DNA of 64,000 nucleotides from Pseudomonas grandcourensis (GTDB lineage Bacteria; Pseudomonadota; Gammaproteobacteria; Pseudomonadales; Pseudomonadaceae), in contig NZ_CP150919.1 in the NCBI RefSeq assembly GCF_039909015.1, positions 4,440,501 to 4,504,500 on the forward strand, in the 5' to 3' direction. The position numbers were made by a program, and so were the translations under genes. Positions 15,128-33,664 of this stretch are shown piece by piece (positions within the stretch are counted from its first letter, which is position 1; each line of letters begins with the position of its first letter). The notes below the pieces were generated by a model. The model searched no databases and was not told the DNA's origin. It worked only from the letters and a program-made list of their open reading frames with translations.

Positions 15128-15240
15128 GGACTTCACCTGTTTCATGTAAGGGAGGCTCGCCTGCAAAGTGCGAGGATATAAAGCTCATCAACGTTAAGTG
15201 CTGCAAACTCTGCTCAATCACTGGCAGGCAGCTGTATTGT

Positions 15241-15797: not shown

Positions 15798-17687
15798 TTA
15801 AGTACGGAAGCTATCCACCAGATGTTTGAGTCGGCTGGCTTGTTGCTCAAGGTCATCACAGGCGAGCAAGGTGGCCTGGAGATTCTCCACGCCTTCTTGG
15901 TTGAGGGATTTGATCTCGGTGATGTCCATATTCAACGAGTCGATTACAGCGGTCTGCTCTTCAGTAGCAGTGGCTACAGACTGATTTATGCCATCAATTT
16001 CGCCAATACGCTGAGTAACGCTCCCTAGTCGCTCGCCAGCCTGGTTGGCGATAACCACACCTTCATGGCTATAGCGCTCGCTTTCGCTCATGGTGCAAAC
16101 CGCCTCACGAGCGCCGACCTGAAGCTCCTCAATCATCGTATGAATTTCTTGTGCCGATATCTGAGTGCGGTAGGCAAGACTGCGTACTTCATCCGCCACC
16201 ACAGCGAAACCGCGACCTGCCTCGCCCGCCCGCGCAGCCTCGATAGCGGCGTTGAGCGCTAGTAGGTTGGTCTGTTCGGAAATGCCCTTGATCACTTCAA
16301 GGATCCGACCAATGCTCACCGTCTTACCATTAAGCGTCTCTATGTTGCTGCAGGATGCACGAATTTTTCCTGACAACTCGTTCATGGCGTTGATCGTCTG
16401 AGCTACCACTTGCCGGCCACCCTCAGCCTGAAGGCGTGCATCTGACGCCTGAAGTGAGGCATCACCGGCATTACACGCGATTTCCTGAGCGGCTGCACCC
16501 AGCTCGTTGATCGCTGCTGCAATGCTGTTGGTGCGATTGGCCTGTTCGTCGGAATTTGCTATGGATGAGCTGGAGGCAAACATCACTCGCTTTGCCACTT
16601 CGTTGACTTGTTCGGTCGCTGATGAGACTTCGCGTATTGAATGTTGGATTCGCTCCACGAAAAGGTTGAAGTCGCTGGCCAATTCTCCAAACTCATCTTG
16701 AGAATGCACGGCCAAACGTCGGGTCAGGTCCCCCTCCCCCTGGGCTATATCGCGCATGGCTTTGCCCATTAACCTCAGAGGTTGCATCAGTACGCGGATT
16801 AGCATGCCCAGTAGAAGCAACGTGATTAGCACGGCAATCAGAGTGGCGAAAATAGCTGAAGCACGGAAATCGCCTAACGCCTGGTAGGCTTTTTTCTTGT
16901 CGATGGACAAACCGATATACCAGTTGACCGAGGGCAGCCCCTTGATCGGCGAGAACATCAGAATATAAGGAACACCCGCCTGCTCAGTCTCACTGAAATG
17001 GGTGCTGATAGCGGGTGTGTCTTGCGGATAGATATCGATAAGATTTTTCATCACCAAGTCTTTATCCGGGTGAGCAAGTATCTTGCCGTCGGCACTGACC
17101 AGGAAGGCATAACCGATGCCGCCCAGATCGAGCGAACTGACAATTTTCGCCAGGGTATCCAAAGTCAGGTCACCACCGACCACACCGAGAGGTTGGTTTC
17201 CATGGTGAACCGGAGTAGCGATGGTCATCATCAACTGGCCAGTGGATGCATCCAGGTACGGCTCAGTCAAAGTCGTACCACCAGCTGCCATCGCATCCTT
17301 GTACCAAGGCCGGGTACGCGGGTCATAATCGGCGGGCAATTCGTCTTTTGGTCGCATCGCAAAGCTGCCGTCGATACCCCCAAGATAGGTGAAGTTAAAT
17401 GTTGAAAGCAGCGTCTTCTGTTCCAGCAGGCGCACCACACTGTCCGGCGTATTGTCGCTGGCAACAGTCTGAGCGACGGTGTCTATCAGCAAAACACGTC
17501 CAGACAGCCAAGCTTGGACATTGCTTGCAGCAATTTTGCTCATCCCCTCAAGGTGGCTTTCGAGGTTTGTATGTATAGCGTCACGCTGAAAATAATCGTT
17601 GTACAGTGTGAATAATGAGAATGCTGCAATGACTACGAGCGATGCGGCGAGCAGAACTTTGTGGCTGAACCTTAAGTGGACAGTCAT
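15798..17687 (-). CDS. Methyl-accepting chemotaxis protein with dCache sensor domain
   Basis: 629 residues. TM1 is about 10-30, a periplasmic dCache_1 domain about 35-280, TM2 about 285-310, then HAMP and a cytoplasmic signalling hairpin with the conserved tip [19 protein letters not shown]. The sensor carries [12 protein letters not shown] and later [10 protein letters not shown], residues that in PctA-type receptors contact the amino group and carboxylate of amino acids, so an amino-acid ligand is likely. There is no C-terminal CheR pentapeptide. It lies downstream of the Lrp gene and the polar amino-acid ABC importer on the same strand, suggesting that the cell swims toward the same compound it imports. 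Confidence 0.93.
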
Positions 17688-17802
17688 TGGAAATTTACCC
17701 GAGATTAAAAATTTCTGTTTTTATTATTTAACTCCAACCGCAGGCCATTAAGACCTGCGCCAGTTCATCTCATGCGTAGCCCGTATCTTTTACACTACAC
17801 CG

Positions 17803-18300
17803 CTAGTCGTGGTGTGTGGACGAATGTTTAACAACAGCCAATTCAGGGTAGGCAACCAGTTTGTCGATACACAGGTCCTCATTCTCCAACCAAACTTCCG
17901 TAAGCGCACGATAGTGCTTCATATCTGTACAGTGCATACGCAGGCTGTAGTCGAACGGACCACTGATAAGATGGCATTCCAAGACCTGAGAACAGCTATC
18001 TACACATGCTTCGAAGGCTTTTTGTGCAGTGCGCCGATTCTGGCTCGATATAGCGACCAATACCTGTAGTGACAATCCCGGTGAGACCTTTTGCACATCG
18101 ATGAACGCACCATAACCGCGAATCACCCCTAGCCTCTCCAACTTGCGTACGCGTTCCTGGCAAGGGCTTGCGGTCAGGTGCACAAGTGTTGCTAGTTTCT
18201 GGTACGTGATGCGCCCGTCATGGCGTAATACGTCAATGATAGCCTCATCAATACGCCCCAATGTTCGTGAAAAATCGGGATTTTTTTCCTTCCTTTTCAT
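17803..18300 (-). CDS. Lrp/AsnC family transcriptional regulator
   Basis: 165 residues. An N-terminal winged helix-turn-helix (RIDEAIIDVLRHDGRITYQK ... SPCQERVRKLERLGVIRGY) is followed by an AsnC ligand-binding (RAM) domain from about residue 80. It begins only 12 bp after the stop of the ABC ATPase gene, so it is the last gene of the importer operon and probably adjusts its expression in response to the imported amino acid. A second, unrelated AsnC-type regulator is at 27902. Confidence 0.92.
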   Translation of the reverse strand: MKRKEKNPDFSRTLGRIDEAIIDVLRHDGRITYQKLATLVHLTASPCQERVRKLERLGVIRGYGAFIDVQKVSPGLSLQVLVAISSQNRRTAQKAFEACVDSCSQVLECHLISGPFDYSLRMHCTDMKHYRALTEVWLENEDLCIDKLVAYPELAVVKHSSTHHD

Positions 18301-18312
18301 TGTTAACTCTAT

Positions 18313-19074
18313 TCACTTCAGTCCATTAGACAGAAATTGTTGAAGGCGCTCGCTGCGCGGGTTATCCAGAATCTCTGCCCCACCCTGCTCCTCGACTCGG
18401 CCTTGATGCAGAAACAGTAACTGGCTCGACACCTTGCGGGCAAAGCTCATTTCGTGGGTCACCATGATCATGGTCCGGCCTTCTTCGGCCAGGCCCTGAA
18501 TCACCTTTAGTACTTCGCCCACCAGTTCAGGATCCAGCGCCGACGTCGGTTCGTCGAACAGCAGAACTTCCGGCTCCATCGCTAATGCTCGTGCAATCGC
18601 CACTCGCTGTTGCTGACCGCCAGAGAGAAATGCTGGAAACTGCTCCGCAACGCGCGCTGGCAGCCCCACCTTGTCCAGATAACGTCGGGCACGATCTTCG
18701 GCATCTTTTTTGCTGACACCCAGCACCCGGCGCGGGGCCATCGTGATGTTTTCCAGAACGGTCATGTGGCCCCACAGATTGAAGTGCTGGAAGACCATGG
18801 CTAGACGGGTGCGCAGCCTTTGCAACTCAGCGGCATCGGCCACCTGCATGCCATGATGGTTTTTGACCATGCGAATCTGCTTGCCGTCCAGGCTCATGGC
18901 TCCGTCATTGGGTGTTTCGAGAAAGTTGATGCAGCGCAGGAAGGTACTTTTGCCTGACCCACTGGCGCCGATCAAACTGATCACATCACCAGTTTTGGCT
19001 TTCAGAGATACGCCCTTGAGTACTTCGTGGTTACCGTAACTCTTGTGCAGTTCTTCAACAGTCAATTTGTACAT
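18313..19074 (-). CDS. Polar amino-acid ABC transporter, ATP-binding subunit (HisP/AotP-like)
   Basis: 253 residues from the ATG at 19074 (MYKLTVEELHKSYG, as in Pseudomonas AotP/HisP); the upstream in-frame ATG at 19086 directly abuts AGAGG and is less likely. Walker A is GASGSGKST, the Q loop is in VFQHFNLWGHM, the ABC signature is LSGGQQQRVA, Walker B is VLLFDEP, and the H loop is in VTHEMSFARK. Residue lengths and spacing match the histidine/lysine/arginine importer subfamily. It powers the two permeases encoded just upstream (19178-20613). Confidence 0.93.
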   Translation of the reverse strand: MYKLTVEELHKSYGNHEVLKGVSLKAKTGDVISLIGASGSGKSTFLRCINFLETPNDGAMSLDGKQIRMVKNHHGMQVADAAELQRLRTRLAMVFQHFNLWGHMTVLENITMAPRRVLGVSKKDAEDRARRYLDKVGLPARVAEQFPAFLSGGQQQRVAIARALAMEPEVLLFDEPTSALDPELVGEVLKVIQGLAEEGRTMIMVTHEMSFARKVSSQLLFLHQGRVEEQGGAEILDNPRSERLQQFLSNGLK

Positions 19075-19177
19075 GTGCGCAATCATCCTCTAAGGGAAAA
19101 TGTGGCGTCGCTGTGCAGCTGTGACAGCCGGCGACAAAGCCCGAGGCCTAATGAGCGGCCATATGGAGTACCAAGCC

Positions 19178-19888
19178 CTAATGAGCCGGACCAAGGAAAG
19201 CCAACCAACGGCGCTCGGCGATGCGGAATAGTCCGACAAGCGCGAAGGTAACCACCAAGTAAATCAGCGCAGTAATACCGAACGAATGAAAGGTCAGAAA
19301 GGTCGCCGAGTTGGCGTCGCGAGCAACTTTCAGAATGTCCGGGACGGTTGCAGTGAAGGCCACGGTGGTCGAATGCAGCATCAGAATTACTTCGTTGCTG
19401 TAGTACGGCAACGAGCGACGTAGCGCCGATGGCATGATCACGTAGGCATAGAGCTTCCAACCTGTCAGGCCATAGGCCTTCGCAGCTTCGACTTCGCCAT
19501 GGGCCATGTTGCGAATTGCTCCGGCGAAAATCTCCGTGGTGTAAGCGCAGGTGTTCAGCGCAAACGCAAGGATGGTGCAGTTCATCGCGTCGCGAAAAAA
19601 TGCATCGAGCACCGGTTGTGCACGAACTGCAGCCAGGCTGTAGATCCCGGTGTAGCAAATCAGCAACTGGATATAGAGCGGCGTTCCCCGAAACAGGTAG
19701 GTGTAGAACTGTACGGGCCAGCGTAGGTAACACTTGGATGAAACCCGGGCAATGGATAACGGGACCGACACCAAAAATCCGATGAAGATTGAGGCACTGA
19801 GCAACCACAAAGTCATGGCTAGCCCCGTGATCTGGTGGCCGTCGCTATAGAGAAAAGGCTTCCAGTAATCCTGCAAGAGTTCGATCAT
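19178..19888 (-). CDS. Polar amino-acid ABC transporter permease (HisM/AotM-like)
   Basis: 236 residues from ATG 19888, which overlaps the stop of the preceding permease gene as ATGA, implying translational coupling; a start 45 bp further upstream is therefore rejected. About five transmembrane helices and the EAA loop EVEAAKAYGLTGWKLYAYVI that docks on the ATPase. It pairs with the HisQ-like permease as a heterodimer. Confidence 0.9.
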   Translation of the reverse strand: MIELLQDYWKPFLYSDGHQITGLAMTLWLLSASIFIGFLVSVPLSIARVSSKCYLRWPVQFYTYLFRGTPLYIQLLICYTGIYSLAAVRAQPVLDAFFRDAMNCTILAFALNTCAYTTEIFAGAIRNMAHGEVEAAKAYGLTGWKLYAYVIMPSALRRSLPYYSNEVILMLHSTTVAFTATVPDILKVARDANSATFLTFHSFGITALIYLVVTFALVGLFRIAERRWLAFLGPAH

Positions 19889-20613
19889 CGTACAGCCTCC
19901 CGGGAACCTGCCGCATAACGCCGTTCCAACCAACGCAAGACATAGTTTGAAGTACTGGTAATCACCAAATAAATAAGCGCTGCCAAGACCAGAAAATAGA
20001 ACAATTGATAGGTGCTTTTACCAGCGTCCTGGGCTGCCTTTACCAAGTCAGCAAGGCCTATGATCGACACCAGTGCAGTGGCTTTGAGGATGACCATCCA
20101 GTTATTACCAATACCCGGTAAAGCAAAACGCATCATTTGCGGGAAGACCACAAAGCGAAAGCGCTGAGTGCGACTTAAGCCATAGGCGGTGGCCGCTTCC
20201 ACCTGTCCACGGGGCACGGCTAGCATCGCCCCGCGAAAAGTCTCAGTGAAATAGGCCCCGTAGATAAACCCCAGCGTGATGATCCCGGCAACAAACGGAT
20301 TGATCTCTATGTATTCCCAATCCAGTGCCTGCGTGATCCCGGTCAACCAGGTTTGCAGGCTGTAAAAGATCAGTAGCATCAGCACTAGGTCCGGCACCCC
20401 GCGAATCAGGGTAGTGTAGAGCTGTGCTGGGATTCGCAGGAGTTTGACACTGGAAAGTTTGGCACTGGCCCCGATAAGACCAAGCAGCACGCTCAACAGC
20501 AGCGAGAGTATTGACAACTTGACGGTCATCCAGGCGCCCTCCAGCAACAGAGGACCGAACCCTTTCATGCTGTATATGGAGAGCCCGAGGGCCTGCAACA
20601 GTATTTCGAACAT
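19885..20613 (-). CDS. Polar amino-acid ABC transporter permease (HisQ/AotQ-like)
   Basis: 242 residues with about five transmembrane helices and the EAA motif QVEAATAYGLSRTQRFRFVV, followed by LPGIGNNWMVILKATALVS, as in HisQ. It is the first permease gene of the operon, 57 bp after the binding-protein gene; a stem-loop lies in that gap. It forms the membrane channel with the HisM-like subunit. Confidence 0.92.
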   Translation of the reverse strand: MFEILLQALGLSIYSMKGFGPLLLEGAWMTVKLSILSLLLSVLLGLIGASAKLSSVKLLRIPAQLYTTLIRGVPDLVLMLLIFYSLQTWLTGITQALDWEYIEINPFVAGIITLGFIYGAYFTETFRGAMLAVPRGQVEAATAYGLSRTQRFRFVVFPQMMRFALPGIGNNWMVILKATALVSIIGLADLVKAAQDAGKSTYQLFYFLVLAALIYLVITSTSNYVLRWLERRYAAGSREAVR

Positions 20614-20640
20614 AATTCAGGAACCTATCGCGATAATAAA

Positions 20641-20663
20641 GCGCCCGCCCCAAGGACGGGCAC
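20641..20663 (-). promoter_or_regulatory. Stem-loop between binding-protein and permease genes
   Basis: GCCCG-TCCTTGGGG-CGGGC can fold on the minus-strand transcript just after the binding-protein stop codon. GC-rich intra-operon hairpins at this place commonly stabilise the receptor mRNA or cause partial termination, so that the receptor is made in excess over the membrane subunits. No long T run follows, so full termination is unlikely. Confidence 0.55.
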
Positions 20664-20670
20664 CCGGGCC

Positions 20671-21453
20671 TTACTTGCCGCTATAGAGATTCAGATCACC
20701 GAAGTGTTTTTTCTGGATTAAGTCATAGGTACCGTCATCGTGTAACGCTTGGATGCCCTTATCCAAAAAGGCCTTGAGGTCTTTGTTACCTTTAGAGATA
20801 CCAATAGCTGTTTTGGCTGGCAGTAACTCGCTGTCAACGGGCTTGCTGACTTCATAACCAGTGCCTTGGGGGGAATTCAAAAAACCCAGCTGAGCTTGCA
20901 GCATGTCCTGGATCGCCGCATCGAGGCGACCGGAAACCAGGTCGTAGTAAACCTGATCCTGGTTCTGATAGGCCTGAGTTTTGACACCAGCCTTATCCAG
21001 AACCGCTTTGGCATAGGCTTCCTGGATACTTCCTTGCAAATAGCCTACGGTCTTGCCCTTAAGGGAAGTAACCTCTTCGCTCAGACCAGAGTTTTTCTTG
21101 AACACATAAGAGGTTGCGCCGGAGAACAGCTCATTTGAGAAGTCAATGACTTTCTCGCGGGCTGGGGTCACCGTCATGGAAGAGAGAATGCCATCGAATT
21201 TGTTGGCCTTCAGGCCAGGAATCGTGCCGTCGAAATCGCTCTCGACCCACGTACATTTGACCTTCAATTTGGCACAGATTGCATTACCCAGATCGATATC
21301 AAACCCCGTAAGACTACCATCTGCGGCTTTAGATTCGAATGGTGCGTAAGAAGCATCAACGCCAAAACGCAGTTCTTTGTACTCCTTGGCCAGAGCGACA
21401 TTTGCGCAAAGTGGGAAAAGTGCTAACACGAAGAGCTTTCGAAGCGAAATCAT
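20671..21453 (-). CDS. Periplasmic polar amino-acid-binding protein (ArgT/HisJ-like)
   Basis: 260 residues from ATG 21453 (GGGATT upstream). The signal peptide (about 1-22) ends NVALA. The mature protein begins ELRFGVDASYAPFESK, the LAO/HisJ/ArgT signature, with GFDIDLGNAICAKLKVKC and the ligand loops SMTVTPAREKVIDFSNELF and GRLDAAIQDM. It is the first gene of the importer operon. A 59-bp sequence about 260 bp upstream is repeated before the homoserine dehydrogenase gene, which suggests that the ligand may not be a basic amino acid but homoserine or a related compound (inference). Confidence 0.92.
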   Translation of the reverse strand: MISLRKLFVLALFPLCANVALAKEYKELRFGVDASYAPFESKAADGSLTGFDIDLGNAICAKLKVKCTWVESDFDGTIPGLKANKFDGILSSMTVTPAREKVIDFSNELFSGATSYVFKKNSGLSEEVTSLKGKTVGYLQGSIQEAYAKAVLDKAGVKTQAYQNQDQVYYDLVSGRLDAAIQDMLQAQLGFLNSPQGTGYEVSKPVDSELLPAKTAIGISKGNKDLKAFLDKGIQALHDDGTYDLIQKKHFGDLNLYSGK

Positions 21454-21897
21454 ATGAGAATCCCTAGATGTTGTAGTTTGATTAAGGGCAGTGAACGATT
21501 TGACGACTTTAACGATTCTTCTTTCGGCAACTACATTTCGGATATAAACCCCCGCAATAGTTGCATTACTGCACACCCATTTAAGAGCTGTGGCAAGCGT
21601 TACGCAATCAACGGCAATAGAAATTTAGCTATACACCTCCTAAGCAATTTTATATTCACTCATAATCAAGACCTCATGTCCTGGTACTGGACACTGATAG
21701 TACGCCGATGGCTCGCTCATCCAAATATGGCAAACAGATCAATGTTATGAGCAAACCGCTCGTAACAGAGAGCAATCTGCTTGACTGAAAACCTGCTTTG
21801 CAAAGGTAAACAAAAAATCAGCGCATGAACCCCCTCAGGAAATGCTGAGGCGTCACTCCAACTCTTATCATTTATTTTCTAACCGAAACAGAAAAAA
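21454..21897. other. Intergenic region with the importer operon promoter
   Basis: No supported gene in 444 bp of relatively A+T-rich sequence. It holds the 59-bp regulatory repeat (21715-21773), a long leader for the binding-protein gene, and a small hairpin CCTCAG-GAAATG-CTGAGG (21833-21850) that may end the SugE transcript. Confidence 0.55.
21715..21773 (-). promoter_or_regulatory. 59-bp regulatory repeat, copy 1 (upstream of importer operon)
   Basis: This 59-bp block aligns without gaps to 27824-27882 in the same orientation, with about 48 of 59 identical positions. It shares the core ATATGGCAAAC and a palindromic centre, here TGAGCAAACCGCTCG (21748-21762). Copy 2 lies directly before hom and beside an AsnC-type regulator gene. 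Likely an operator/promoter block bound by one regulator. Confidence 0.65.
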
Positions 21898-22215
21898 TCA
21901 AGCTGAAGCCAGCTTCATCATTAGAAGACCGCTGACAATTAAGACAGCTGCGACAACTCGCATAAGGCTGGCAGGTTCCCCTAGAAAGATGATACCCACT
22001 GCAAACGCGCCAACAGCACCAATGCCAGTCCAAATTGTATAAGCAGTACCAAGCGGTAGACTTCTCATGGAAAATGATAGGAGCGCAAAACTTGCCATTA
22101 GCATGACCAAGGTAACAACAGACGGCCCAAGCTTGGTCATACCTTCAGATTGCTTCATGGAGAAAGCCCAAACAACTTCAAGTACCCCTGCAAATATTAA
22201 ACATATCCAAGCCAT
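21898..22215 (-). CDS. Small multidrug resistance (SMR) exporter, SugE/Gdx-like
   Basis: 105 residues with four transmembrane helices. The N-terminal AGVLEVVWAFSMKQSEGMTK holds the essential membrane Glu. The sequence SLPLGTAYTIWTGIGAVGA matches the SugE/Gdx branch (guanidinium or quaternary-ammonium export) rather than EmrE. It works as a dual-topology dimer using the proton gradient. It lies about 210 bp downstream of the PLP-enzyme gene, beyond a terminator, so probably has its own promoter. No recognisable guanidine riboswitch precedes it. Confidence 0.85.
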   Translation of the reverse strand: MAWICLIFAGVLEVVWAFSMKQSEGMTKLGPSVVTLVMLMASFALLSFSMRSLPLGTAYTIWTGIGAVGAFAVGIIFLGEPASLMRVVAAVLIVSGLLMMKLASA

Positions 22216-22313
22216 GATAAGCCTCCATTGAAAGATCCGTCACGACCAAGACGAATACAACCTACAAGTATTGGGGCCGCGCCCCTGAAAATAAAAACAA
22301 TGGATCGGGCTCT

Positions 22314-22340
22314 TAAAAAAGCCCCCGCTGGTACGGGGGC
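22314..22340 (-). terminator. Rho-independent terminator after the PLP-enzyme gene
   Basis: On the minus strand GCCCCCGTACCAGCGGGGGC folds into an 8-bp GC stem followed directly by a T6 run, about 85 bp past the stop at 22425. A strong intrinsic terminator that ends the hom-ALDH-permease-PLP transcript. Confidence 0.9.
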
Positions 22341-22424
22341 AAAGGAGGGTTACCGACCAGACCATATTTTGAGCAATGCCGTACATCCAACGCTAAAGGT
22401 GCCACCAATTTTTTTGCGTTCAGA

Positions 22425-23627
22425 TCATTTGAATGTCTCGTCCAAGGCCAGGGAAATATCTTTGATCAAATCGTCCGGATCTTCGAGCCCCACCGAAAAC
22501 CGAAGGTGACCGTAGGTACGGAACTCTTCAGGGTACTTGTCAAAGCCGCCTCGGCCTTCCGCACCCACATGAACGATGAGGGACTCATCGTGCCCGAGGG
22601 ATACTGCAGAAGTGATGATGCGCAGATTCGAAACGAACCGATTCTGAGTATCCGGATCGCCCTTTACTGCAAAAGCCATCATCGCCCCATATCCCTTGCC
22701 TGCAAATTGCCGACGGGCTAGTTCATGCTGCGGGTGGGACGGAAGCCCCGGATAGTAGATATAGGCTATACGATCATCCGAATTGAGAAACTCAGCCAAT
22801 TTTTCAGCCGTATTTAGAAGTTGTTTCAGTCGCAGAGGCAGCGTGACTGAACCGCGCATTATCATCCAGGCGTTAAATGGAGAGATGGTCGCGCCGAGGT
22901 CAACAAGAGCGTCATTCTTGATCTTGGTAATCATCTGAGTGGAACCGATAACCACCCCGCCCATGGCATCACCATGGCCATTGATATACTTCGTCAGAGA
23001 GTGGACGACCAGGTCGACCCCGTGCTGACTGGCACGGAAAAACGGAGGTGGAGTGAAAGTAGCATCGACGGAAATCAGTGCCCCGTGTGCATGGGCAATT
23101 TCAGCCAGCGCAGCGATATCTGCAACCTTAGTGGTTGGATTAGCAATCGTCTCGGTATGGATCAGTTTGGTATTAGGGCGGATCGCTTGGCGAACAGCCT
23201 CTAGGTCACCTACGTCGACAAATGTGGCTTCAATGCCATAACGCTCAGGCAAAAGCTCCGCGAAAAGACGCCATACAGCCTGATACGTAATATCACTGAC
23301 AATGACGTGGTCACCGCTTTTCAAGAAAGAGAAAAACACTGAATGCAAAGCGGCTACGCCGGTAGCAAATACAACCGCAGCCTCGCAGCCTTCGAGTGCA
23401 GCAAGTTTCTTTTCAAGGCATACCTGGTTATGCCCCTGGTTCCGCGTGTACACAAGGCCGTCTGGGCTAGACCAGTCCATCGTGGCCGGATCTTCAGGCA
23501 AGAGATAAGAGTTAGCCATTACCAGCGGAGTGCGAACAGCACCAGTAGTGGTGTCGGTTACGTTACCACCATGAACTGCGAGTGTAGCCGCCGAAAGTGT
23601 GGACAGATTCTTTTTGTCAGGACGCAT
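22425..23627 (-). CDS. Cys/Met metabolism PLP-dependent enzyme (gamma-family lyase or sulfhydrylase)
   Basis: 400 residues from ATG 23627 (GGAGGA 7 bases upstream). Fold-type I gamma-family enzyme: the cofactor Asp is in ISVDATFTPPPFF and the Schiff-base Lys in VVHSLTKYINGHGDAMGG. Family members include methionine gamma-lyase, cystathionine synthase/lyase and O-acylhomoserine sulfhydrylase, all acting on four-carbon amino acids related to homoserine. The usual YxR-x-NPT segment is altered here to YTRNQGHNQ, so substrate choice may differ. It is the last gene of the hom/ALDH/permease series, 35 bp from the permease stop. The reaction is unassigned; gamma-elimination or replacement on a homoserine derivative is plausible. 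Confidence 0.85.
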   Translation of the reverse strand: MRPDKKNLSTLSAATLAVHGGNVTDTTTGAVRTPLVMANSYLLPEDPATMDWSSPDGLVYTRNQGHNQVCLEKKLAALEGCEAAVVFATGVAALHSVFFSFLKSGDHVIVSDITYQAVWRLFAELLPERYGIEATFVDVGDLEAVRQAIRPNTKLIHTETIANPTTKVADIAALAEIAHAHGALISVDATFTPPPFFRASQHGVDLVVHSLTKYINGHGDAMGGVVIGSTQMITKIKNDALVDLGATISPFNAWMIMRGSVTLPLRLKQLLNTAEKLAEFLNSDDRIAYIYYPGLPSHPQHELARRQFAGKGYGAMMAFAVKGDPDTQNRFVSNLRIITSAVSLGHDESLIVHVGAEGRGGFDKYPEEFRTYGHLRFSVGLEDPDDLIKDISLALDETFK

Positions 23628-23661
23628 GTCTATTTCCTCCAAAGTTATTTTTTGTTGGGTG

Positions 23662-25200
23662 TCATTGATTCTGAAGGTGAGTGAAAGAAGGACGGTTGGT
23701 CTGATCTGCTCGGACCAATTCTTGATTTTCGTCAAAGACTAATTCACCACTCTCAATTGCACGAACACGGCCACGAACCATGTACCAACCAACAACAAGG
23801 GCGGTGGCATAAAACGGCAGCGAAGCAATCGAGTACGTACCTACGGGATAATCGAATGCGATAAGAACCAGAACCAAACCGAAGAACCCCAAAGTCGCGT
23901 AACCACTGTAAGGCGCAAACGGCATTCGAAACCCCGGACGCTCCAGATCACCTTGCTGGGAGTATTTGAAGAGCTTGATCTGACACAGGACGATTGTTGA
24001 CCACGAACCGATCAACATAACGGCAGTGAGTGTCAGCGCGATTTCAAAGGCTTCCCCCGGAACAATGGCGTTAAGTACGACACCAATTAGTGAAGCAACG
24101 GTCGTCAGCATGATGCCAGCGAACGGAACACCTTGACGGTTCATCTTGGCCAGGAAGCTAGGGGCTGATCCGTTGATTGCCAGCGAGCGAAGCACCCGGC
24201 CAGTGGAGTAAATGCCAGCGTTCAGAGAAGACACGGCCGCGGTAATCAAGACCATGTTCATAATCGCGTCTGCACCCTTGATCCCCAGCGAGCCGAAGAA
24301 AGTCACAAACGGGCTTACCCCCGCCGAGTACGCTGTGTGGGGGAGCAGCATTGCCAACAGCAATACAGAACCAACGTAAAAAACAATAATGCGGAAAACA
24401 ACTGCCCGAATGGCTTTCGGCATGACTGTAGCGACGTCTTGGGCTTCGCCAGCTGCAGTACCAACCAACTCCACACTGCCATACGCAAATATCACCCCCT
24501 GGATCATGATTACGGCGGGCAAGAGGCCTGATGGGAACCAACCGCCATTGTCAGAAATCAGTTTGAATCCGACCTCATGGCCTGGCAGCGGAGTGCCGAA
24601 CAGCACCATGTAAATGCCGATCCCAAGGAAGGTCGTTAATGCAGCCACCTTGATCAGGGCAAACCAGAATTCGAGTTCACCAAAAATTTTTACCGAGACA
24701 AGGTTAATCGCAGTAACAAAACCCAATGCTCCCAGTGCCAAGGACCATTGAGGGATGTCGCCCATGAAAGGGACATAGGCTTTGAAGAAATTCAGGTAGA
24801 GCGCTGTCGCTGTGAGATCTGCAATGGCAACCATTACCCAGTCAGTCCAGTACATCCATCCCACGGCAAAAGCCCATTTCTCACCGTAGAACTCTCGAGC
24901 ATAGGAGACGAACGAGCCCGAGGATGGGCGATACATCACCAGTTCGCCCATAGCCCGAATGATGAACCACGCAAAAAAGCCACAGATTGCATAGACAAAC
25001 ACAAGCGAGGGTCCGGCTTCGGCGAGTCGTGCGCCTGCGCCCATGAATAGACCACTTCCGATTGCCCCCCCTATGGCAATCATCTGAACCTGGCGAGGCT
25101 TGAGCACCTTTTGATAGCCCGCATCTTCTGCGCTGAAGTCTCTCTTTCGAGTTACACCAGACGATGGCACGCGTGTGGGATTAAGATCATTCACACTCAT
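23662..25200 (-). CDS. Amino-acid permease (APC superfamily, AnsP/CycA/GabP type)
   Basis: 512 residues from ATG 25200 (AAGG upstream). Twelve hydrophobic segments follow a hydrophilic N-terminus. The first helix contains IAIGGAIGSGLFMGAG, the substrate-binding GSG motif of the AAT family, and GELVMYRPSSGSFVSYAREF follows. It is a proton-coupled cytoplasmic-membrane importer of a neutral amino acid. It lies between the aldehyde dehydrogenase and the PLP-enzyme genes on the same strand, so its substrate is probably the compound that this series degrades. Confidence 0.9.
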   Translation of the reverse strand: MSVNDLNPTRVPSSGVTRKRDFSAEDAGYQKVLKPRQVQMIAIGGAIGSGLFMGAGARLAEAGPSLVFVYAICGFFAWFIIRAMGELVMYRPSSGSFVSYAREFYGEKWAFAVGWMYWTDWVMVAIADLTATALYLNFFKAYVPFMGDIPQWSLALGALGFVTAINLVSVKIFGELEFWFALIKVAALTTFLGIGIYMVLFGTPLPGHEVGFKLISDNGGWFPSGLLPAVIMIQGVIFAYGSVELVGTAAGEAQDVATVMPKAIRAVVFRIIVFYVGSVLLLAMLLPHTAYSAGVSPFVTFFGSLGIKGADAIMNMVLITAAVSSLNAGIYSTGRVLRSLAINGSAPSFLAKMNRQGVPFAGIMLTTVASLIGVVLNAIVPGEAFEIALTLTAVMLIGSWSTIVLCQIKLFKYSQQGDLERPGFRMPFAPYSGYATLGFFGLVLVLIAFDYPVGTYSIASLPFYATALVVGWYMVRGRVRAIESGELVFDENQELVRADQTNRPSFTHLQNQ

Positions 25201-25299
25201 TTTGTTACCTTTTATTGTTGTATTGGGCAAGGCTCTACCGACCAGAAGAGCCTTGCCGAGGACCCGATTTAATCCTAGGGATTCACATCGATCCTTTAA

Positions 25300-26718
25300 T
25301 CAACTTCCGCCAACACCGTTTAAGCAGATCACTTTTGGTTGCGTCATATCTTCATACGCGAAACGCACACCTTCACGCCCCATGCTGCCGTATTTTGAAC
25401 CACCAAATGGCATTGCATCAAAACGATAGTCAGATGAGTCATTAATCATGACGCCGCCGGCTTCGAGTCGTTTAGCTGCTTTCATGGCGACATTCAAATT
25501 GCTGGTGAAAATACCCGCATGCAAACTGTATTCTGGTTCATTAGCCAGTGTCAGCGCCTCATCAAGCGAGGCCACGCGTTGAAGAATGACAACCGGACTA
25601 AATACTTCCTCACACCAAACTTTACAGCTTTGGCTAACATTCTCCAGGACCGTCGGAGAGTAAAGCGAGCCTTGGCGTATATTACCAAATAACAGGTTAG
25701 CCCCTTTATCCATTGCCTCGATAACTACTTCTTCAGTGCGTTTTGCAGCAGCTTCAGTAATCATTGGCCCAACATCCGTGCTTTCGTCAGCAGGATTTCC
25801 CACGACTAAAGCACTTGTCTTCACAACGAATTTCTTTTTGAACTCCTCATATATTGTCTCTTCAACAAGAATTCGTTGGGTACCGATACAATTTTGCCCG
25901 GCCGCCCAAAAAGCGCCTGATACACAGGACTCAACGGCTTCATTCAGATCACAATCGCCCATGACGATAACCGGGGCATTGCCCCCCAAATCCATCGCCA
26001 GTTTTTTAAGGCCTGCATTGCGAGAGATCTGCTCACCGGTAACAAAACCGCCCGTGAAGGAAACCATACGTACCGCTCGATGAGCGACCAGTGCCTTGCC
26101 CAGCGCAGCCCCCCCAGTTGCAATGGACACGACCGCAGGAGGGAGACCCGCAGCGTTCAGGCAAGCCACCAGCTTAATGGCAGATAACGGAGAGAGCTCA
26201 GAGGGTTTGAGTACAACAGCATTACCGCCAGCGATCGCAGGCCCCAACTTGTGAGCGACCAAGTTGAGTGGGTCGTTGTATGGGGTAATTGCAACAATTA
26301 CCCCCAAAGGCTCCCGAGTAAACCATCCCTGACGGGACTCAGATCCTACATAGGAGTCAAACGGAATCACTTCGCCAGCATTACGCTTGGCCTCCTCAGC
26401 GGACAGTTTCAGCGTATTGACGCAGCGTAAAACCTCCTTTCTCGCCTGCTTGATCGTTTTTCCCGACTCGGCAACAATCAGACTGGCAAACGCCTCCTTG
26501 TCGCTCTCAACCAAAGCAGCGGTTTTTTCCAGTATGCGAGCACGTTCGTGCCTTGGAAGTTCTTTGGCAATCAGCGCACCAAGCTTCGCCGTATCAATGA
26601 TCGCAGTGGCAAATGAAGCGGGTATGTCCGTCACCTCTCCAACTGCAGCGCCATCATACGGACTCAAAACTGTTATGGTTTTATAATCAACAGCGAGCGA
26701 AAGACTCAAGCTATTCAT
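25300..26718 (-). CDS. NAD(P)-dependent aldehyde dehydrogenase
   Basis: 472 residues from ATG 26718, which has AGGTAAG 8 bases upstream and begins 2 bp after the hom stop. The ALDH fold shows [20 protein letters not shown], the cofactor loop SFTGGFVTG and nucleophile Cys277 in GQNCIGTQR, and ends with [19 protein letters not shown]. The usual general-base Glu (LELGG) is replaced by Asp243 (MDLGGN), an unusual change. Tight coupling to homoserine dehydrogenase suggests that the substrate is aspartate semialdehyde, giving aspartate without phosphorylation; this is inference. Related ALDHs act on lactaldehyde, succinate semialdehyde and similar compounds. Confidence 0.9.
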
Positions 26719-26720
26719 GA

Positions 26721-27770
26721 TCACTTACCTATCTTAGTTTTGTTCTTGTGAATGCTGACGATATCCGAGAGTAAGGCGAATGCTGTTTCAAACCGACCTG
26801 CACCCGCTCCGACAACCGTTACCGGGCCCAGAACATTTGTATTAAATGTAATTGCATTCGTTGCACCACTCACACCGGCCAGTGCGTCCCCCTGAGGCAA
26901 CAATTGAGGACTAACAGATGCAGTGATGGAGCCATTGCTCATTTTTTCCGCGCTGCCAATTAGTTTCCACCGGGCATTGGCTTTCGTTGCTTCGGCGATA
27001 TCTTTTGACGTGATCCCCGAGATGCCTTTGCAAAGGACATCGCTCGGAGTCAACTTCGCCCCCAGAAGCTCATTCGCCAAAATGACTACTTTAAGACGAA
27101 CATCATGCCCTTCCACGTCTGCAGTGGGGTCAGCTTCTGCGTAACCGAGTTCCTGAGCCTTGGCGACTGCATCAGAGAAGTCGAGACCTTCTTCCATGCT
27201 AGAAAGTACGAAATTGGACGTACCATTCAAGATGCCCTTAAACCCGCTGATTTCCGAGCCGGCCAGCGACTCTTTAGCCAGACGAATGACGGGGGTGCCG
27301 CTCATTACCGAGCCTTCAAACTCGAATTGGGCACCGGTGCTTCTGGCCAATGCTTTCAGGCTTTCAGCGTGCAACGCCACCGGCCCTTTGTTGGTGGTGA
27401 CCACACTGATACCTTTTTCCAGAGCCCAGCGACAGAAAGTCGTAGCTGGCTCTCCGTCTACAGGGTTGGTGAACGTCGCCTCGGCGATAAGATCGGCCCC
27501 CGAGAAACGGATAACCGTCTCATTTGCAGGCTCAGCACTGCCCGCTGGCAATGTTCTAAACCCCCCTTTTACAGCAGGAACTGCGGCCAATTCGTGGGCA
27601 TCCAACCCGTTCTTGTTGATGATGGAGCCAAAGTAAAGATCACTGACACCAACAATTTTTAGCTTAAAACCAAATTCATTAGCCCAGTGCTCGTTCTTAT
27701 CTGCAATGAGCTGCGTCAACGCACGGTTTACACCACCAAAACCAAGCAAAGCAATTTTATATTCAGTCAC
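26721..27770 (-). CDS. hom: Homoserine dehydrogenase, short form without ACT domain
   Basis: 349 residues from GTG 27770 (GAGG 9 bases upstream); no ATG is available in frame near the domain start. The Rossmann motif is [14 protein letters not shown], the catalytic Lys is in [12 protein letters not shown], and the substrate/catalytic site is [20 protein letters not shown]. The protein ends about 80-90 residues earlier than the biosynthetic enzyme of Pseudomonas, so the ACT domain for threonine feedback is absent. It interconverts homoserine and aspartate semialdehyde. In this setting (AsnC regulator, coupled aldehyde dehydrogenase, permease) it more likely works in the oxidative, catabolic direction. 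The N-terminal extension seen further upstream overlaps the regulatory repeat and is not coding. Confidence 0.9.
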
Positions 27771-27823
27771 GACATGGGCCTCATTGTTATGTTTTCGGTA
27801 CTGAAATACTAAACTGCAGCAGT

Positions 27824-27882
27824 GCTCATACGAATATGGCAAACCGATCATTGTTGCGAGCAAAATGCTCGCAGGAGAGAGC
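27824..27882 (-). promoter_or_regulatory. 59-bp regulatory repeat, copy 2 (upstream of hom)
   Basis: Gapless match (about 48/59) to 21715-21773. Its centre is the perfect palindrome CGAGCAAAATGCTCG (27857-27871; 6-bp arms, 3-bp spacer). It lies 54 bp upstream of the hom start and 20 bp from the end of the AsnC gene, so AsnC is the obvious candidate to bind it. Confidence 0.7.
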
Positions 27883-27901
27883 GTTTTGATTTCCTAGCAA
27901 C

Positions 27902-28339
27902 CTACTTCGTGCAAGACAATACAAAAGACGTAACCGTATTCAGAACTCCTGGCAACGTGGATATGTCGCTCCAGACCCGATGAATACAATCCGAACTTGC
28001 CGCTTCAACTGTCACTACGATATCCAGGTCACCACTCATTACATTGCAGGACACGACCTCAGGCATTGAGACAATTGAACGCACTACTTCAGCACCACGC
28101 ATTCGGTCTTTTCGATACACAAAAATAAGGGCATTAATTGGCGCAACCTCGGAAGGTGGCCCACCTTTGATTATGGTATAACCCCTGATATATCCGTCCC
28201 GCTCCAACCGTTCAATCCTGAGCCTGACAGCATTCCTAGACAAATTAACTTTCATGGCAATGTCGTTATGCGCAAGTCGAGCATTACGAGTAAGCTCTTC
28301 CAGTATTTTTTCATCCGTCTTATCTAAAACGCGCTTCAT
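27902..28339 (-). CDS. Lrp/AsnC family transcriptional regulator
   Basis: 145 residues. A helix-turn-helix (TDEKILEELTRNARLAHNDI ... RLRIERLERDGYIRGY) is followed by an AsnC effector domain. It starts 14 bp after the stop of the threonine-synthase-like gene, so both are probably on one transcript, and hom follows after a gap that contains a palindromic operator. Such regulators sense an amino acid; context points to homoserine, threonine or a related compound. Confidence 0.92.
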   Translation of the reverse strand: MKRVLDKTDEKILEELTRNARLAHNDIAMKVNLSRNAVRLRIERLERDGYIRGYTIIKGGPPSEVAPINALIFVYRKDRMRGAEVVRSIVSMPEVVSCNVMSGDLDIVVTVEAASSDCIHRVWSDISTLPGVLNTVTSFVLSCTK

Positions 28340-28353
28340 CTCTAACTCCAGGA

Positions 28354-29757
28354 TTATAGCGAGCGAGACTTCGTGTCTTGGGATATCGTCTTGATGAGTT
28401 CCGTAAGGATGCCAACATCATTGGAAATTGAAATGCATTCGTCATTAGAGAAGGGGTGAGCACTCACCACACTCATTGGAGATTGAACATCGGCTTCAGC
28501 CAGAACTGAGGCAGAGCTTGAAGGATGCGTCGTGGCCAAGCAGATCATTGGTGTCAGTAAGCTACGCCTGTTAATTCGCGCAGCTCGTAATCCAATCGCG
28601 GTATTAGGACTGATCAAGTAACCACTTTTAACAAAGACTTCATGAATACAGGAAAATGCCTCTGCATCCTCTACCGCCAAAGAATCAAATAGCTTTCGCG
28701 CCTCTAACCACTCATCCTGTTCCAGTTGAATTTGGCCATCCGTCTCTAGTAGCTCCATATTTCTAGCCACTTTATCACTGCACCTATTGAGAATGCTCCA
28801 TTGCAGCCGCTCGAAATTAGAGGCTAACGACACATTCATGCAAGGCGTGTTGGTAATACGAATCTCATTACGCCTATAGAGGTTAGACTGAAGAAAGTCA
28901 TGCAAACCCGCATTGGTATTCGTTGCTACAATTAGCTGCCTGATGGGCAACCCCATTTCCCTTGCAATATAGCCTGCATAGAGAGCACCAAAATTTCCGG
29001 TAGGCACACTGAACGCCACCTCTCTTTTAGGCGCACCTAATTGAAGCGACGAGTAGAAGTAGAAGGACAGATGCGCCAGCACCCTCACCCAACTCACCGA
29101 ATTGAAAGATATTAATTGTTGACCTGTTTCGTTAATGCCTCTGTGAAATTTTTCGCACAGCTGATGACAATCGGCGTAATCACCCTCAACCAAGATATTT
29201 ACAACATTTTCTTCGGCAGCGCCTAATAAGCGACGCCGATGTTCATCTGTTATTCCTCTGGAAGGATGCAGAACAATCACAGTCACACCTTCCATGCCAT
29301 TGAAGGCTTTGATGGCCGCGACACCGGTGTCTCCACCAGTGCAGCCAACGACAAGCGCTTTCTTTCCGGACTTTAGTAAAGAGTATTCAACCAGACGAGA
29401 CATCAATTGGAGACCGAAGTCTTGATAGACCCCTGCCGGACCATGGAATAGTTCTAATACCCACTCATTGGTAGCCGTCTGATAGAGCGGCGCAACGGCG
29501 TTACTTTTAAAACGGTCAAATGTCTCCTCAAGAATTCGAGACAGTTCATTTTGAGGGATATAGTCACCTAGGAACGGCTCGATCACATGACGTGCCAGTT
29601 CGTGAAATGGTAGCCATTCAAGCTTCAGGAGATCATCGCTTTTGAAGCGAGGAACCTTGCTAGGAACGAAAAGCCCACCATCCGGTGCGTACGCCCCCAT
29701 GAGGACCTCGCTGAACTCGAATTCTTTACCAGGCGTCCGTGTGCTGACGTACTTCAT
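28354..29757 (-). CDS. Threonine synthase-like protein lacking the PLP lysine
   Basis: 467 residues from ATG 29757, aligning along its length with Pseudomonas ThrC: the opening KYVSTRTPGKEFEFSEVLMG, GCTGGDTGVAAIKAFNG, SVPTGNFGALYAGYIAREMG and WLEARKLFDSLAV. The motif normally HGPTLAFKDF reads HGPAGVYQDF: codon 112 (29422-29424) is CAA, Gln, not the Schiff-base Lys. HPHNRVSE is also changed to HPSRGITDE. The frame is otherwise intact, so this is a divergent paralogue and not a simple pseudogene. It cannot form the normal internal aldimine; it may be inactive, regulatory, or catalyse something else. It is in an operon with AsnC and precedes hom. Confidence 0.88.
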   Translation of the reverse strand: MKYVSTRTPGKEFEFSEVLMGAYAPDGGLFVPSKVPRFKSDDLLKLEWLPFHELARHVIEPFLGDYIPQNELSRILEETFDRFKSNAVAPLYQTATNEWVLELFHGPAGVYQDFGLQLMSRLVEYSLLKSGKKALVVGCTGGDTGVAAIKAFNGMEGVTVIVLHPSRGITDEHRRRLLGAAEENVVNILVEGDYADCHQLCEKFHRGINETGQQLISFNSVSWVRVLAHLSFYFYSSLQLGAPKREVAFSVPTGNFGALYAGYIAREMGLPIRQLIVATNTNAGLHDFLQSNLYRRNEIRITNTPCMNVSLASNFERLQWSILNRCSDKVARNMELLETDGQIQLEQDEWLEARKLFDSLAVEDAEAFSCIHEVFVKSGYLISPNTAIGLRAARINRRSLLTPMICLATTHPSSSASVLAEADVQSPMSVVSAHPFSNDECISISNDVGILTELIKTISQDTKSRSL

Positions 29758-30001
29758 GATTTGAGACACCCTCTCGCCTTTTCTGAGCCTTCCACCCGTA
29801 AGGCGGCGCCCTGCTGAAATTCAGTGCTGCAGTGAGCCTTTCCTGTGAAATGTGAGGCCTTCTTCTGAAGCGTTGAGCGAGATCATCGTCATCTGCAAAC
29901 GCAGATGGTGAGGGGTCGCACATCACCCGCGCCAGGCCAATCACCCATCACTCAGCTACCACACGGCCACTTTCGTCGCTTGCCGTTCAAGCTACCAACT
30001 A

Positions 30002-30030
30002 TTGACTAAAAAAGTCAATATAGTGACTAT
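30002..30030. promoter_or_regulatory. TTGACT-N5-AGTCAA operator, copy A
   Basis: TTGACT (30002-30007) and AGTCAA (30013-30018) form a perfect inverted repeat, followed by a second palindrome ATAGTGACTAT (30020-30030). The same arrangement recurs at 33648-33664, at the start of the cupin-HTH regulator gene. This copy lies between the thrC-like gene (reading left from 29757) and dinB (reading right from 30140), so it could control either. Confidence 0.65.
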
Positions 30031-31770: not shown

Positions 31771-32664
31771 TCAGCTCAGTTCGAGCTCGTCGATCACCGC
31801 AGCAATTTGCTGACGCCCTGCTCCACTGATGGTTCTGAGTGGCAATGGCAAGCTCGGAGAGTGGGTGAATCCACGAAGCTCGGCCGCCGTTGCAACAACG
31901 CGCAAGCTTCCCCCAAATTGTGTAAAGAGGGCCCATAGAGGCTTCAAAGATTCGGAAAGGCGAGTCGCTTCTTTGGCGTTACCCGACAACGCAGCACGCG
32001 TGATTGCCAGGGCTGTTTTCGGGAACAAGCCCCCAATGACGGAGTACCAGACCTGACAGCCTGCGTTCAATCCAGTAGCAGCAAATACATCCCCGCTTAC
32101 CCCGATCGTTACGTGCTCCGGAATCAGTGCCCGAAGGCGATCGACTCGTGCCTTGGCCTGATCTGGTGCTTCAGGAACGCCAGGGATCTTGATCGAGTGC
32201 ACATTCGGCAGGTGGGCAATGCGCCCGTGAAGCTCATCAGTAAATTCGAAATGGGTGGTGCCGGGGTTGTCATAGACGCATAGCGGGACGGAGATATTGG
32301 CGGTGACCGTTTCGTACAGGGAAAAAACATCTTCAGCTGTTAGCTTCTGATAGGAAACGGGTGGCAGCAACAATGCCTTGACTCCCACCTTCTGCGCATC
32401 CTCTGCCAGCAACAGCACATCACGCGTCCGCAGCGACCCAATACTTACCATGACGGGAACATTCCCGGCTGCCTCTACTGCCAACTGCGTAACTCGTGAG
32501 CGTTCAATCCGAGAAAGGTACGCATAGCTTCCTGTAGATCCGAGCGCACCGATAGAATCCACTTTTGCAGCCACCAGTTGCTCCACAAGGCGAGCAAATG
32601 CTCCTTCATCCACACCCTGCTCATTCATTGGCGTCAAAGGAAATGCACTAAGACCGGTAAACAT
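31771..32664 (-). CDS. Dihydrodipicolinate synthase (DapA) family aldolase/lyase
   Basis: 297 residues with the class I aldolase TIM barrel of the DapA/NAL family: GALGSTGSYAYLSRIER, PVMVSIGSLRTRDVL, LCVYDNPGTTHFEF with the catalytic Tyr, and SIKIPG with the Schiff-base Lys. The GSTGS loop (GxTGE in true DapA) indicates a paralogue acting on another 2-oxo acid or hydroxy-amino acid. It stands between the B3/4 and PaiB-like genes under probable control of the divergent cupin regulator. Substrate unknown. Confidence 0.88.
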   Translation of the reverse strand: MFTGLSAFPLTPMNEQGVDEGAFARLVEQLVAAKVDSIGALGSTGSYAYLSRIERSRVTQLAVEAAGNVPVMVSIGSLRTRDVLLLAEDAQKVGVKALLLPPVSYQKLTAEDVFSLYETVTANISVPLCVYDNPGTTHFEFTDELHGRIAHLPNVHSIKIPGVPEAPDQAKARVDRLRALIPEHVTIGVSGDVFAATGLNAGCQVWYSVIGGLFPKTALAITRAALSGNAKEATRLSESLKPLWALFTQFGGSLRVVATAAELRGFTHSPSLPLPLRTISGAGRQQIAAVIDELELS

Positions 32665-32906: not shown

Positions 32907-33602
32907 CTAATTGGCACCTGGACCGATAAGCACACTCTCAATCTGAGCGCCTGGCATCATCAGTTGCAGGCCTTCTATCAGCTTGTCACCCGCTTCAGTC
33001 AATGCCTCGAGCGGCATTGTCGGCAGACTTTCCAGAATGAACCACATGTGCTTCGCGTCTGCACTGAGCCGTGTTCTGACACCCTGTCGCCAATTCCAAC
33101 GACGGCAAGTCACCCCTTTATCGTCCCGCCAAACAACCTCGCCAGAATCAGGATATTCGTGGGCTGGAGCGCCTTCTTTCATGGTGTCGAAAGGTTCCGA
33201 TCCATCAGCAACAGCGAGTCGCGGCGAGCCCACATAGGCTTCGACGTTCTCACCGCCGACCGGAACTGCGTATTCAATGCTGATGGCGTTATAGAGATCA
33301 ACCACTGGATCGATACTCGGCAGACTGCCGTCACGCAGGACCCGTTTGCGAAGAGCTTCAGCTGAGCAAGGGGTGCGCTGCGGCTTGGCACCGAATTTTC
33401 GGAAGAGATCCGCCCAAGCGGTCAGGTGAGCGTCTGCCCACAGTGCACCACCCGCCGTGACTGATTGACAGGCTCGAGCCAAAGCGTCCTTGCCAATATC
33501 TGGATTGGCGATTGGTGCAGCTTCGACCACAATGCTGAGCGCTCTGAACTCAGGTGCCAAATTGATTACGTCTTGGTCGATTGACGGCAGTACGGACAGC
33601 AT
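32907..33602 (-). CDS. B3/B4 tRNA-binding domain protein
   Basis: 231 residues resembling the B3/4 domain of the phenylalanyl-tRNA synthetase beta subunit as a free-standing protein: DVYDLYNAISI-type segment VVDLYNAISIEYAVPVGGEN, then DGSEPFDTM and SGEVVWRDDKGVTCRRWNWR. Free-standing members are thought to edit or bind misacylated tRNA or to bind amino acids; the role is unproven. It is the first gene of the minus-strand set, diverging from the cupin-HTH regulator across 45 bp, which makes joint regulation very likely. Confidence 0.85.
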   Translation of the reverse strand: MLSVLPSIDQDVINLAPEFRALSIVVEAAPIANPDIGKDALARACQSVTAGGALWADAHLTAWADLFRKFGAKPQRTPCSAEALRKRVLRDGSLPSIDPVVDLYNAISIEYAVPVGGENVEAYVGSPRLAVADGSEPFDTMKEGAPAHEYPDSGEVVWRDDKGVTCRRWNWRQGVRTRLSADAKHMWFILESLPTMPLEALTEAGDKLIEGLQLMMPGAQIESVLIGPGAN

Positions 33603-33647
33603 CAGAGAATCCCTTTAATCCTAAATTTCACTTCATACTAGCGATCA

Positions 33648-33664
33648 ATGACCAAAATAGTCAA
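33648..33664. promoter_or_regulatory. TTGACT-N5-AGTCAA-type operator, copy B, overlapping a start codon
   Basis: ATGACC-AAAAT-AGTCAA matches copy A (30002-30018) with the same 5-bp spacing; it continues with AATATA as copy A does. The first three bases are the ATG of the cupin-HTH regulator. This position, in the 45-bp gap between divergent genes, suits direct autorepression and control of the B3/4-DapA-PaiB set. Confidence 0.65.

Follow-up and report, generated by a model that had tools for sequence, protein, structure and literature searches.

Canavanine is an arginine mimic that occurs in legume seeds and root exudate. The type of pathway by which bacteria utilise it is known and was published in 2022-2023 for Pseudomonas canavaninivorans, now P. 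alvandae at NCBI, and Rhizobium leguminosarum (Hauth et al. 2022, 2023). Passages of PMC10018355, PMC12508155 and PMC11018352 report that the canavanine-γ-lyase (CanγL) family cleaves canavanine to homoserine and hydroxyguanidine, that P. canavaninivorans secretes hydroxyguanidine and that canavanyl-tRNA(Arg) is cleared by CtdA; according to the first of these, ctdA lies in front of the canavanine operon, and in R. leguminosarum its homologue is found together with canavanine genes. Here, we describe a locus of Pseudomonas grandcourensis that lies in a stretch of 64,000 nucleotides (positions 4440501-4504500 of C1, a single-contig genome of 6.76 Mb, G000), the whole of which was analysed and is called the window in the following. 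The original prediction, made from the letters of the window, was a regulon for the sensing, uptake and catabolism of homoserine. We are highly confident that it is a canavanine-utilisation and canavanine-resistance locus; a legume toxin thereby replaces homoserine as the likely substrate. Gene identities, synteny, motifs, the loss of a residue and selection are observed at this locus, and substrates, direction of flow and regulation are predicted. Like the published operon, it has a CanγL homologue with CtdA beside the operon, and genes for a homoserine dehydrogenase (Hom) and an aldehyde dehydrogenase (ALDH), two enzymes that presumably have a role in the published pathway as well. The 2022 abstract reportedly mentions the induction of homoserine and aldehyde dehydrogenase activities.

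The pyridoxal 5'-phosphate (PLP) enzyme of the locus, earlier described as gamma-family, is most likely a homologue of CanγL, and its cleavage activity is predicted from this homology (Table 1). Canavanine names are carried by two of its relatives: P0111 is called canavanine-gamma-lyase at JGI, and P0093, from R. leguminosarum bv. trifolii WSM2304, is a cystathionine gamma-lyase by its NCBI name and has a UniRef name starting with 'Canav'. The SLTK motif, which we take to hold the PLP lysine of the lyase, is aligned between the window protein and both of them.

Important insight was gained from the genes that accompany the lyase in other genomes. Six short peptide patterns were used to search a collection of about 85,000 species genomes for CanγL, a survey that reaches close relatives only; 80 of the 85 matching loci were kept, and partner genes were called by tblastn with per-gene identity cut-offs. 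Where the lyase is at least 76% identical to that of the window (16 loci, L006-L018 and L020-L022), CtdA, SugE and ALDH are present in 16/16 and Hom in 14/16. A threonine-synthase-like (ThrC-like) protein is likewise found in 16/16 of these Pseudomonas-type loci, and in 0/64 of the other CanγL stretches. At 69-76% identity (39 loci, mostly of rhizobia and actinobacteria), CtdA is present in 27, SugE and ALDH in 20 each, Hom in 16 and the ThrC-like protein in none, at least one of CtdA, SugE, Hom and ALDH being found in 33/39. Below 69% (25 loci sampled, of which nine are partial and 16 span 19 kb or more), these four partners are found in 0/25 at the cut-offs, one locus having a 36% ALDH match. 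This last group serves as a rough internal control, to be taken with caution given the small number of such distant loci and their origin in other lineages. Within Pseudomonas, CanγL is patchy: at E 1e-100, four of the 149 species genomes have it.

Two of these partners point to the handling of canavanine and its by-product. A search of the genome for the B3/4 domain gave two genes, the 231-aa CtdA candidate and a 795-aa frame, which from its size we infer to be PheT; the window CtdA shares 56% identity with its counterparts in two loci of R. leguminosarum. The small multidrug resistance (SMR) protein resembles the Gdx/SugE guanidinium exporters 6wk5 and 8vxu, with residues 1-104 of 105 aligned, E13 and W16 included; these two entries match at 1.8e-29 or better, and EmrE entries at 2.8e-13 or worse. 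We take 6wk5 and 8vxu to be Gdx-Clo, thus of Gdx type. The window protein differs from these exporters in its predicted substrate, hydroxyguanidine. In titles and abstract openings of the open-licence PMC literature no link of SugE/Gdx to canavanine export was seen, which makes 'unreported' a provisional statement, and the part seen of an SMR review (PMC9574504) holds no passage on the queried residues.

In the case of uptake, the periplasmic binding protein of the lysine/arginine/ornithine (LAO) type aligns to 1lst with 216.5 bits, and its Asp, Tyr, Phe, Arg and Asp are identical to the residues of 1lst that we assume to be the ligand contacts; it scores below the cut-offs of the models TIGR01096 and NF011586. 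As to the amino-acid-binding residues claimed for the chemoreceptor, an RxRPWYKDA stretch, presumably the amino-acid motif, is common to the window receptor and PctA.

Regarding the fate of homoserine, Hom has PF00742 as its sole Pfam match and no match to an ACT domain, as had been predicted, and its genome holds three PF00742 genes. The coupling to ALDH is equally real, with the hom stop codon at 26721-26723 and the ALDH ATG at 26718. The ALDH reaches no NCBIfam cut-off among the best 25 of its 45 matches. Passages of PMC10228743 cite an oxidation-specialised family of homoserine dehydrogenases described from Arthrobacter, with a R. leguminosarum member encoded near a homoserine catabolism cluster. 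This cluster belongs to the biovar viciae of that species (Vanderlinde 2014, cited there). The locus described here resembles it in the predicted catabolism of homoserine and in having a Hom gene, there one of the specialised family, close by; as a difference, the word 'canavanine' is absent from the main text of PMC10228743. The window Hom is likened to this family by description, and a one-way oxidation of homoserine is a plausible prediction. The predicted route, in which an ACT-less Hom turns homoserine into aspartate semialdehyde and the linked ALDH turns this into aspartate, is plausible in the light of that family.

In the proposed mechanism, canavanine would be detected by the PctA-like chemoreceptor and imported by the arginine-type ATP-binding cassette (ABC) importer, the permease or both. 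CanγL would then split it into homoserine and hydroxyguanidine, of which the latter would leave through SugE/Gdx, while Hom would convert homoserine to aspartate semialdehyde and ALDH would convert this to aspartate. CtdA would strip canavanine that was mischarged onto tRNA-Arg. Altogether this would give a near-complete picture of possible canavanine feeding by a rhizosphere Pseudomonas, with import, cleavage, by-product export, oxidation, tRNA editing and regulation.

Table 1. Features of the canavanine locus, with positions in the window.
Feature	Position	Strand	Basis or remark
dCache chemoreceptor, closest to PctA/PctB	15798..17687	-	sequence comparison
Lrp-family regulator, poorly conserved in relatives	17803..18300	-	domain match and locus comparison
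ABC ATPase	18313..19086	-	gene call and locus comparison
ABC permease 2	19178..19888	-	gene call and locus comparison
ABC permease 1	19885..20613	-	gene call and locus comparison
LAO-type periplasmic binding protein	20671..21453	-	best matches are LAO-binding proteins
Copy of hom promoter and first hom codons, before ABC operon	21642..21817		repeat comparison
SugE/Gdx-type SMR transporter	21898..22215	-	between CanγL and importer; best model NF008512
CanγL homologue	22425..23627	-	PF01053; 73% identical to P0093 and P0111
AAT/APC amino-acid permease, asparagine-permease-like	23662..25200	-	PF00324; NF011623 594.3 bits, cut-off 773
ALDH, putative aspartate-semialdehyde oxidiser	25300..26718	-	PF00171; 2 bp after hom
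ACT-less Hom, putatively of catabolic type	26721..27770	-	NF004912 452.5 bits, above cut-off 373; PF00742 only
hom promoter element with CGAGCATTTTGCTCG palindrome, probable AsnC-type operator	27824..27926		repeat comparison and relatives
Lrp/AsnC-family regulator	27902..28339	-	starts 14 nt after thrC-like stop
Threonine-synthase-like protein, PLP lysine to Gln (Q112)	28354..29757	-	motif and relatives; probable pseudoenzyme
Palindromic operator-like element ATTGACT-N5-AGTCAAT, upstream of thrC-like gene	29986..30027		motif comparison
Dihydrodipicolinate synthase (DHDPS)-family protein	31771..32664	-	PF00701; near ctdA in 10/12 close Pseudomonas loci
CtdA, B3/4-domain canavanyl-tRNA(Arg) deacylase homologue	32907..33602	-	PF03483; 231 aa
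Weak operator-like element before ctdA	33632..33673		74% like 29986-30027; overlaps annotated XRE start
XRE regulator with C-terminal cupin, divergent from ctdA	33648..34265	+	HTH_3 and Cupin_2; start codon uncertain

The locus also exposes a conserved ThrC-like protein, a probable pseudoenzyme, that is paired with AsnC. It resembles threonine synthase (ThrC) in its Thr_synth_N and PALP domains, residues 1-426 of 467 being aligned to the solved threonine synthase 4f4f, and differs from it in the change of the PLP lysine to Gln, in remodelled motifs and in the pairing with AsnC. The lysine in question is that of FHGPTLAFKDF, which we take to be the PLP lysine of threonine synthase. This site is Gln in 12/12 locus relatives and, among the 22 nearest database proteins (one of them the window's own cluster), Gln in 20 and His in one, the last being a fragment without the site, whereas the next 98 listed proteins have Lys in 98/98 with a nearly invariant motif set. 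The gene looks to be under purifying selection, somewhat weaker than on most of its neighbours. The ratio of nonsynonymous to synonymous substitution rates (dN/dS) is 0.06-0.07 against L016, L011 and L017, a rough value only at dS 1.3-2.0, and reaches 0.25 for L014, which is nearly identical; in the comparison with L010, dS is saturated.

The pairing with AsnC is steady. In 40/41 listed loci, with either type of ThrC-like protein, the end of the ThrC-like gene is where AsnC begins (L020 was not resolved, and the 41 include the repeats L112, L113 and L133 of L017, L016 and L018), and the pair stays together also in L125, in which Hom is about 10 kb distant. In a tree, three groups are separated with strong support: a Gln clade, a clade of a second type, which includes the canavanine loci of the P. 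taiwanensis type, and canonical ThrC. The joins between the three are unsure because of long branches. In Pseudomonas sp. A46 (lyase P0020, Gln-type ThrC-like protein P0140, CtdA P0340) the ThrC-like protein probably belongs to a canavanine locus too, as the contigs of all three proteins have one and the same length of 94,130. A degenerate DNA pattern for the Gln motif matched 17 of the 149 genomes, about the same as its reversed-pattern control, and its matches were consequently used only in three CanγL loci (G000, G079, G112).

With this residue change, the ThrC-like protein is unable to make the usual bond between PLP and lysine, and its role is probably that of a partner in binding or regulation. 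A sensing role is favoured because ThrC-like proteins pair more steadily with AsnC than with Hom. As a tentative idea, which we hold to be rather doubtful, they could be catalytically retired threonine synthases that turned into ligand sensors with the adjacent AsnC and report homoserine or canavanine status. In this view, threonine synthase would have been recruited to do the sensing in a regulon for homoserine catabolism, perhaps in two lineages: the Gln type with CanγL, and the second type, which is remodelled but retains the Lys and occurs mostly with another PLP enzyme and permease. The alternative that the protein is still an enzyme, such as an altered threonine synthase or a phospholyase, is a serious possibility, although we do not expect it to hold: second-type relatives retain Lys, one that was scanned passes TIGR00260 (197.7 bits, cut-off 167.1), and 18 of the 22 Gln-type database members keep the GNFG loop, while the distribution of Gln and Lys described above and the remodelling of further motifs speak against it. 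A search of the open-licence PMC literature for canavanine with threonine synthase, or for a threonine-synthase pseudoenzyme with AsnC, gave nothing relevant, a provisional result. The Gln-type ThrC-like protein under purifying selection and the ThrC-like/AsnC pairing may be new.

The comparison further brings out another locus for the predicted oxidation of homoserine, headed by a different enzyme and found in the same genome at C1:3852833-3861181 (7834-16182 of L089). Its proteins are 43% (ThrC-like), 60% (AsnC), 69% (Hom) and 70% (ALDH) identical to those of the window. In this module the ThrC-like protein keeps the Lys and has GNFG changed to AASF, the gamma-family PLP enzyme is of the PRK08249 type (734 bits, above the cut-off of 600), the permease has S-methylmethionine permease as its closest match (661.7 bits, cut-off 716), and a LysR regulator is present. 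Among the 149 Pseudomonas genomes, catabolic-type Hom occurs in 23 and the second-type ThrC-like protein in 24, all 23 Hom genomes being among the latter (Fisher p 4e-26, uncorrected for kinship). As one of the 23, G134, has its second-type ThrC-like gene within a canavanine locus, 22 Pseudomonas species (15%) carry the second module; G076, the 24th ThrC-like genome, is outside the 22 fetched loci. PLP enzyme, permease, LysR, ThrC-like protein and AsnC are found in 21 of these 22, L124 being without the first three. For eight of the 22, the presence of Hom was taken from the genome survey, and in G130 Hom lies on another contig. The substrate of the second module is perhaps another homoserine donor. 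To our knowledge, the conversion of S-methylmethionine to dimethyl sulfide and homoserine is an orphan activity.

The original prediction had free homoserine, for example from pea roots, sensed, imported and oxidised, which would leave the PLP enzyme as an accessory gamma-lyase. The hom-ALDH coupling, the oxidative Hom family cited in PMC10228743, and the related ThrC-like/AsnC/Hom/ALDH set without CanγL in the 22 fetched loci are consistent with such a regulon. Nonetheless, we consider it improbable: the lyase, the linked CtdA and guanidinium-exporter homologues and the LAO-type binding protein all point to canavanine as the substrate, and among the parts found none is known as specific for homoserine uptake. 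Homoserine thus stands as a likely intermediate and falls as the compound that is sensed and imported; the chemistry predicted downstream of it was probably right, the named substrate probably not. Free homoserine may be a second substrate of the canavanine locus.

Several observations weigh against canavanine as the substrate. The activity of the locus in this strain is predicted from its genes, the published operon was likened by description, and what SugE, the importer, the permease and the chemoreceptor recognise is likewise a prediction. Hom is absent from 2/16 close loci, and at 69-76% lyase identity CtdA is missing in 12/39 loci and all four partners in 6/39, four of these six stretches being at least 19 kb long. 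The SMR protein falls just below the cut-off of the SugE model NF008512 (118.4 bits, cut-off 126), and the ThrC-like protein marginally below that of TIGR00260 (164.9 bits, cut-off 167.1). A guanidine riboswitch was not found between 10000 and 36000 at a relaxed threshold; the sole match of the riboswitch search, mir-2070 at 35344, was rejected (E 0.13, far below the gathering score). As to the lyase, canavanine names are visible on 2/120 listed homologues, others being named methionine-gamma-lyase, cystathionine lyase or synthase, trans-sulfuration enzyme or aminotransferase-fold PLP enzyme, and it lies below every NCBIfam cut-off among the best 25 of its 69 matches. That the locus is instead a methionine or cystathionine gamma-lyase or sulfur-metabolism cluster is very hard to believe: the lyase does share the PF01053 fold, has methionine gamma-lyase models among its top matches, solved methionine gamma-lyases as nearest PDB relatives and many close homologues with this JGI name, but scores far below the curated cut-offs (304 bits for the methionine gamma-lyase model TIGR01328, cut-off 549.7) and has CtdA and SugE as genomic partners.

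Regulation of the canavanine locus can be described at the level of short DNA elements. The shared upstream element of the original prediction was recovered as two pairs of aligned stretches upstream of hom and of the ABC operon: 27824-27926 with 21715-21817 (71% over 103 nt) and 27749-27784 with 21642-21677 (78% over 36 nt). Because the second pair covers the first hom codons, the hom promoter and start appear to have been copied upstream of the ABC operon. The palindrome CGAGCATTTTGCTCG, with its 13-nt core exact, lies 98-100 nt upstream of hom in 10/12 close loci; in L013 and L015, canavanine loci with no hom match in the fetched stretch, an operator-like copy with two mismatches lies 151 nt upstream of ALDH. 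A copy with at most two mismatches is found upstream of the binding-protein gene in 12/12. In the window alone, GAGCNNTTTGCTC with at most one mismatch is not significant (4 matches, 1.6 expected, 9 of 100 shuffles as high), and the case for the palindrome consequently rests on its conservation in relatives. In the second-type loci, scanned once single-stranded and once on both strands, it was convincing before Hom in L125 only. AsnC is predicted to bind this shared palindrome and so to act on both catabolic operons, i.e. the hom-ALDH-permease-CanγL genes and the importer.

Another palindrome, ATTGACT-N5-AGTCAAT, is exact upstream of the thrC-like gene in 6/12 close loci (L006, L011, L012, L014, L016, L017), has 2-3 mismatches in 4/12 and is absent in L013 and L015. 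Similar copies with 2-3 mismatches precede ctdA in 11/12 close loci, the L006 stretch ending there. In the window, TTGACT-N5-AGTCAA with at most two mismatches has 3 matches (1.86 expected, 25 of 100 shuffles as high), and TTGAC-N6-GTCAA, whose spacer differs from that of the N5 element, has none. The operator link to ctdA is tentative: the annotated start of the XRE gene falls within the copy, so that coding constraint could account for this weak element, and the pattern is no commoner than chance. An XRE-cupin gene divergent from ctdA is also found in 10 close pseudomonad and four P. taiwanensis-type loci (66-82% identity), and rhizobia have it in 17 loci (52-55%). The stretches of L006 and L014 start beside ctdA, and no such gene was found in them. 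In actinobacterial loci the best XRE match is 34-38% identical and mostly shares the strand of ctdA. In rhizobia and P. taiwanensis-type loci, (T)TGGTCA-like or TGGTC-type half-sites are repeated in the short gap between CtdA and XRE. The XRE-cupin protein is a probable local regulator, with predicted binding and action on ctdA and perhaps on the thrC-like/asnC pair.

The nine genes named by the original prediction were all confirmed, on the minus strand between 15798 and 29757. It left out the SMR gene, the Lys-to-Gln change in the thrC-like gene and, just beyond its range, CtdA and the XRE-cupin gene. As a whole, 16 locus proteins are 97-100% identical to their counterparts in Pseudomonas jessenii DSM 17150 (L006). 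The DHDPS-family protein beside ctdA is a divergent member of its family; DHDPS uses aspartate semialdehyde as a substrate, and the protein could touch the pathway. Near the locus, an alanine-racemase-like gene (10900-12129) and an M20 amidohydrolase-like gene (13949-15166) were identified by eye.

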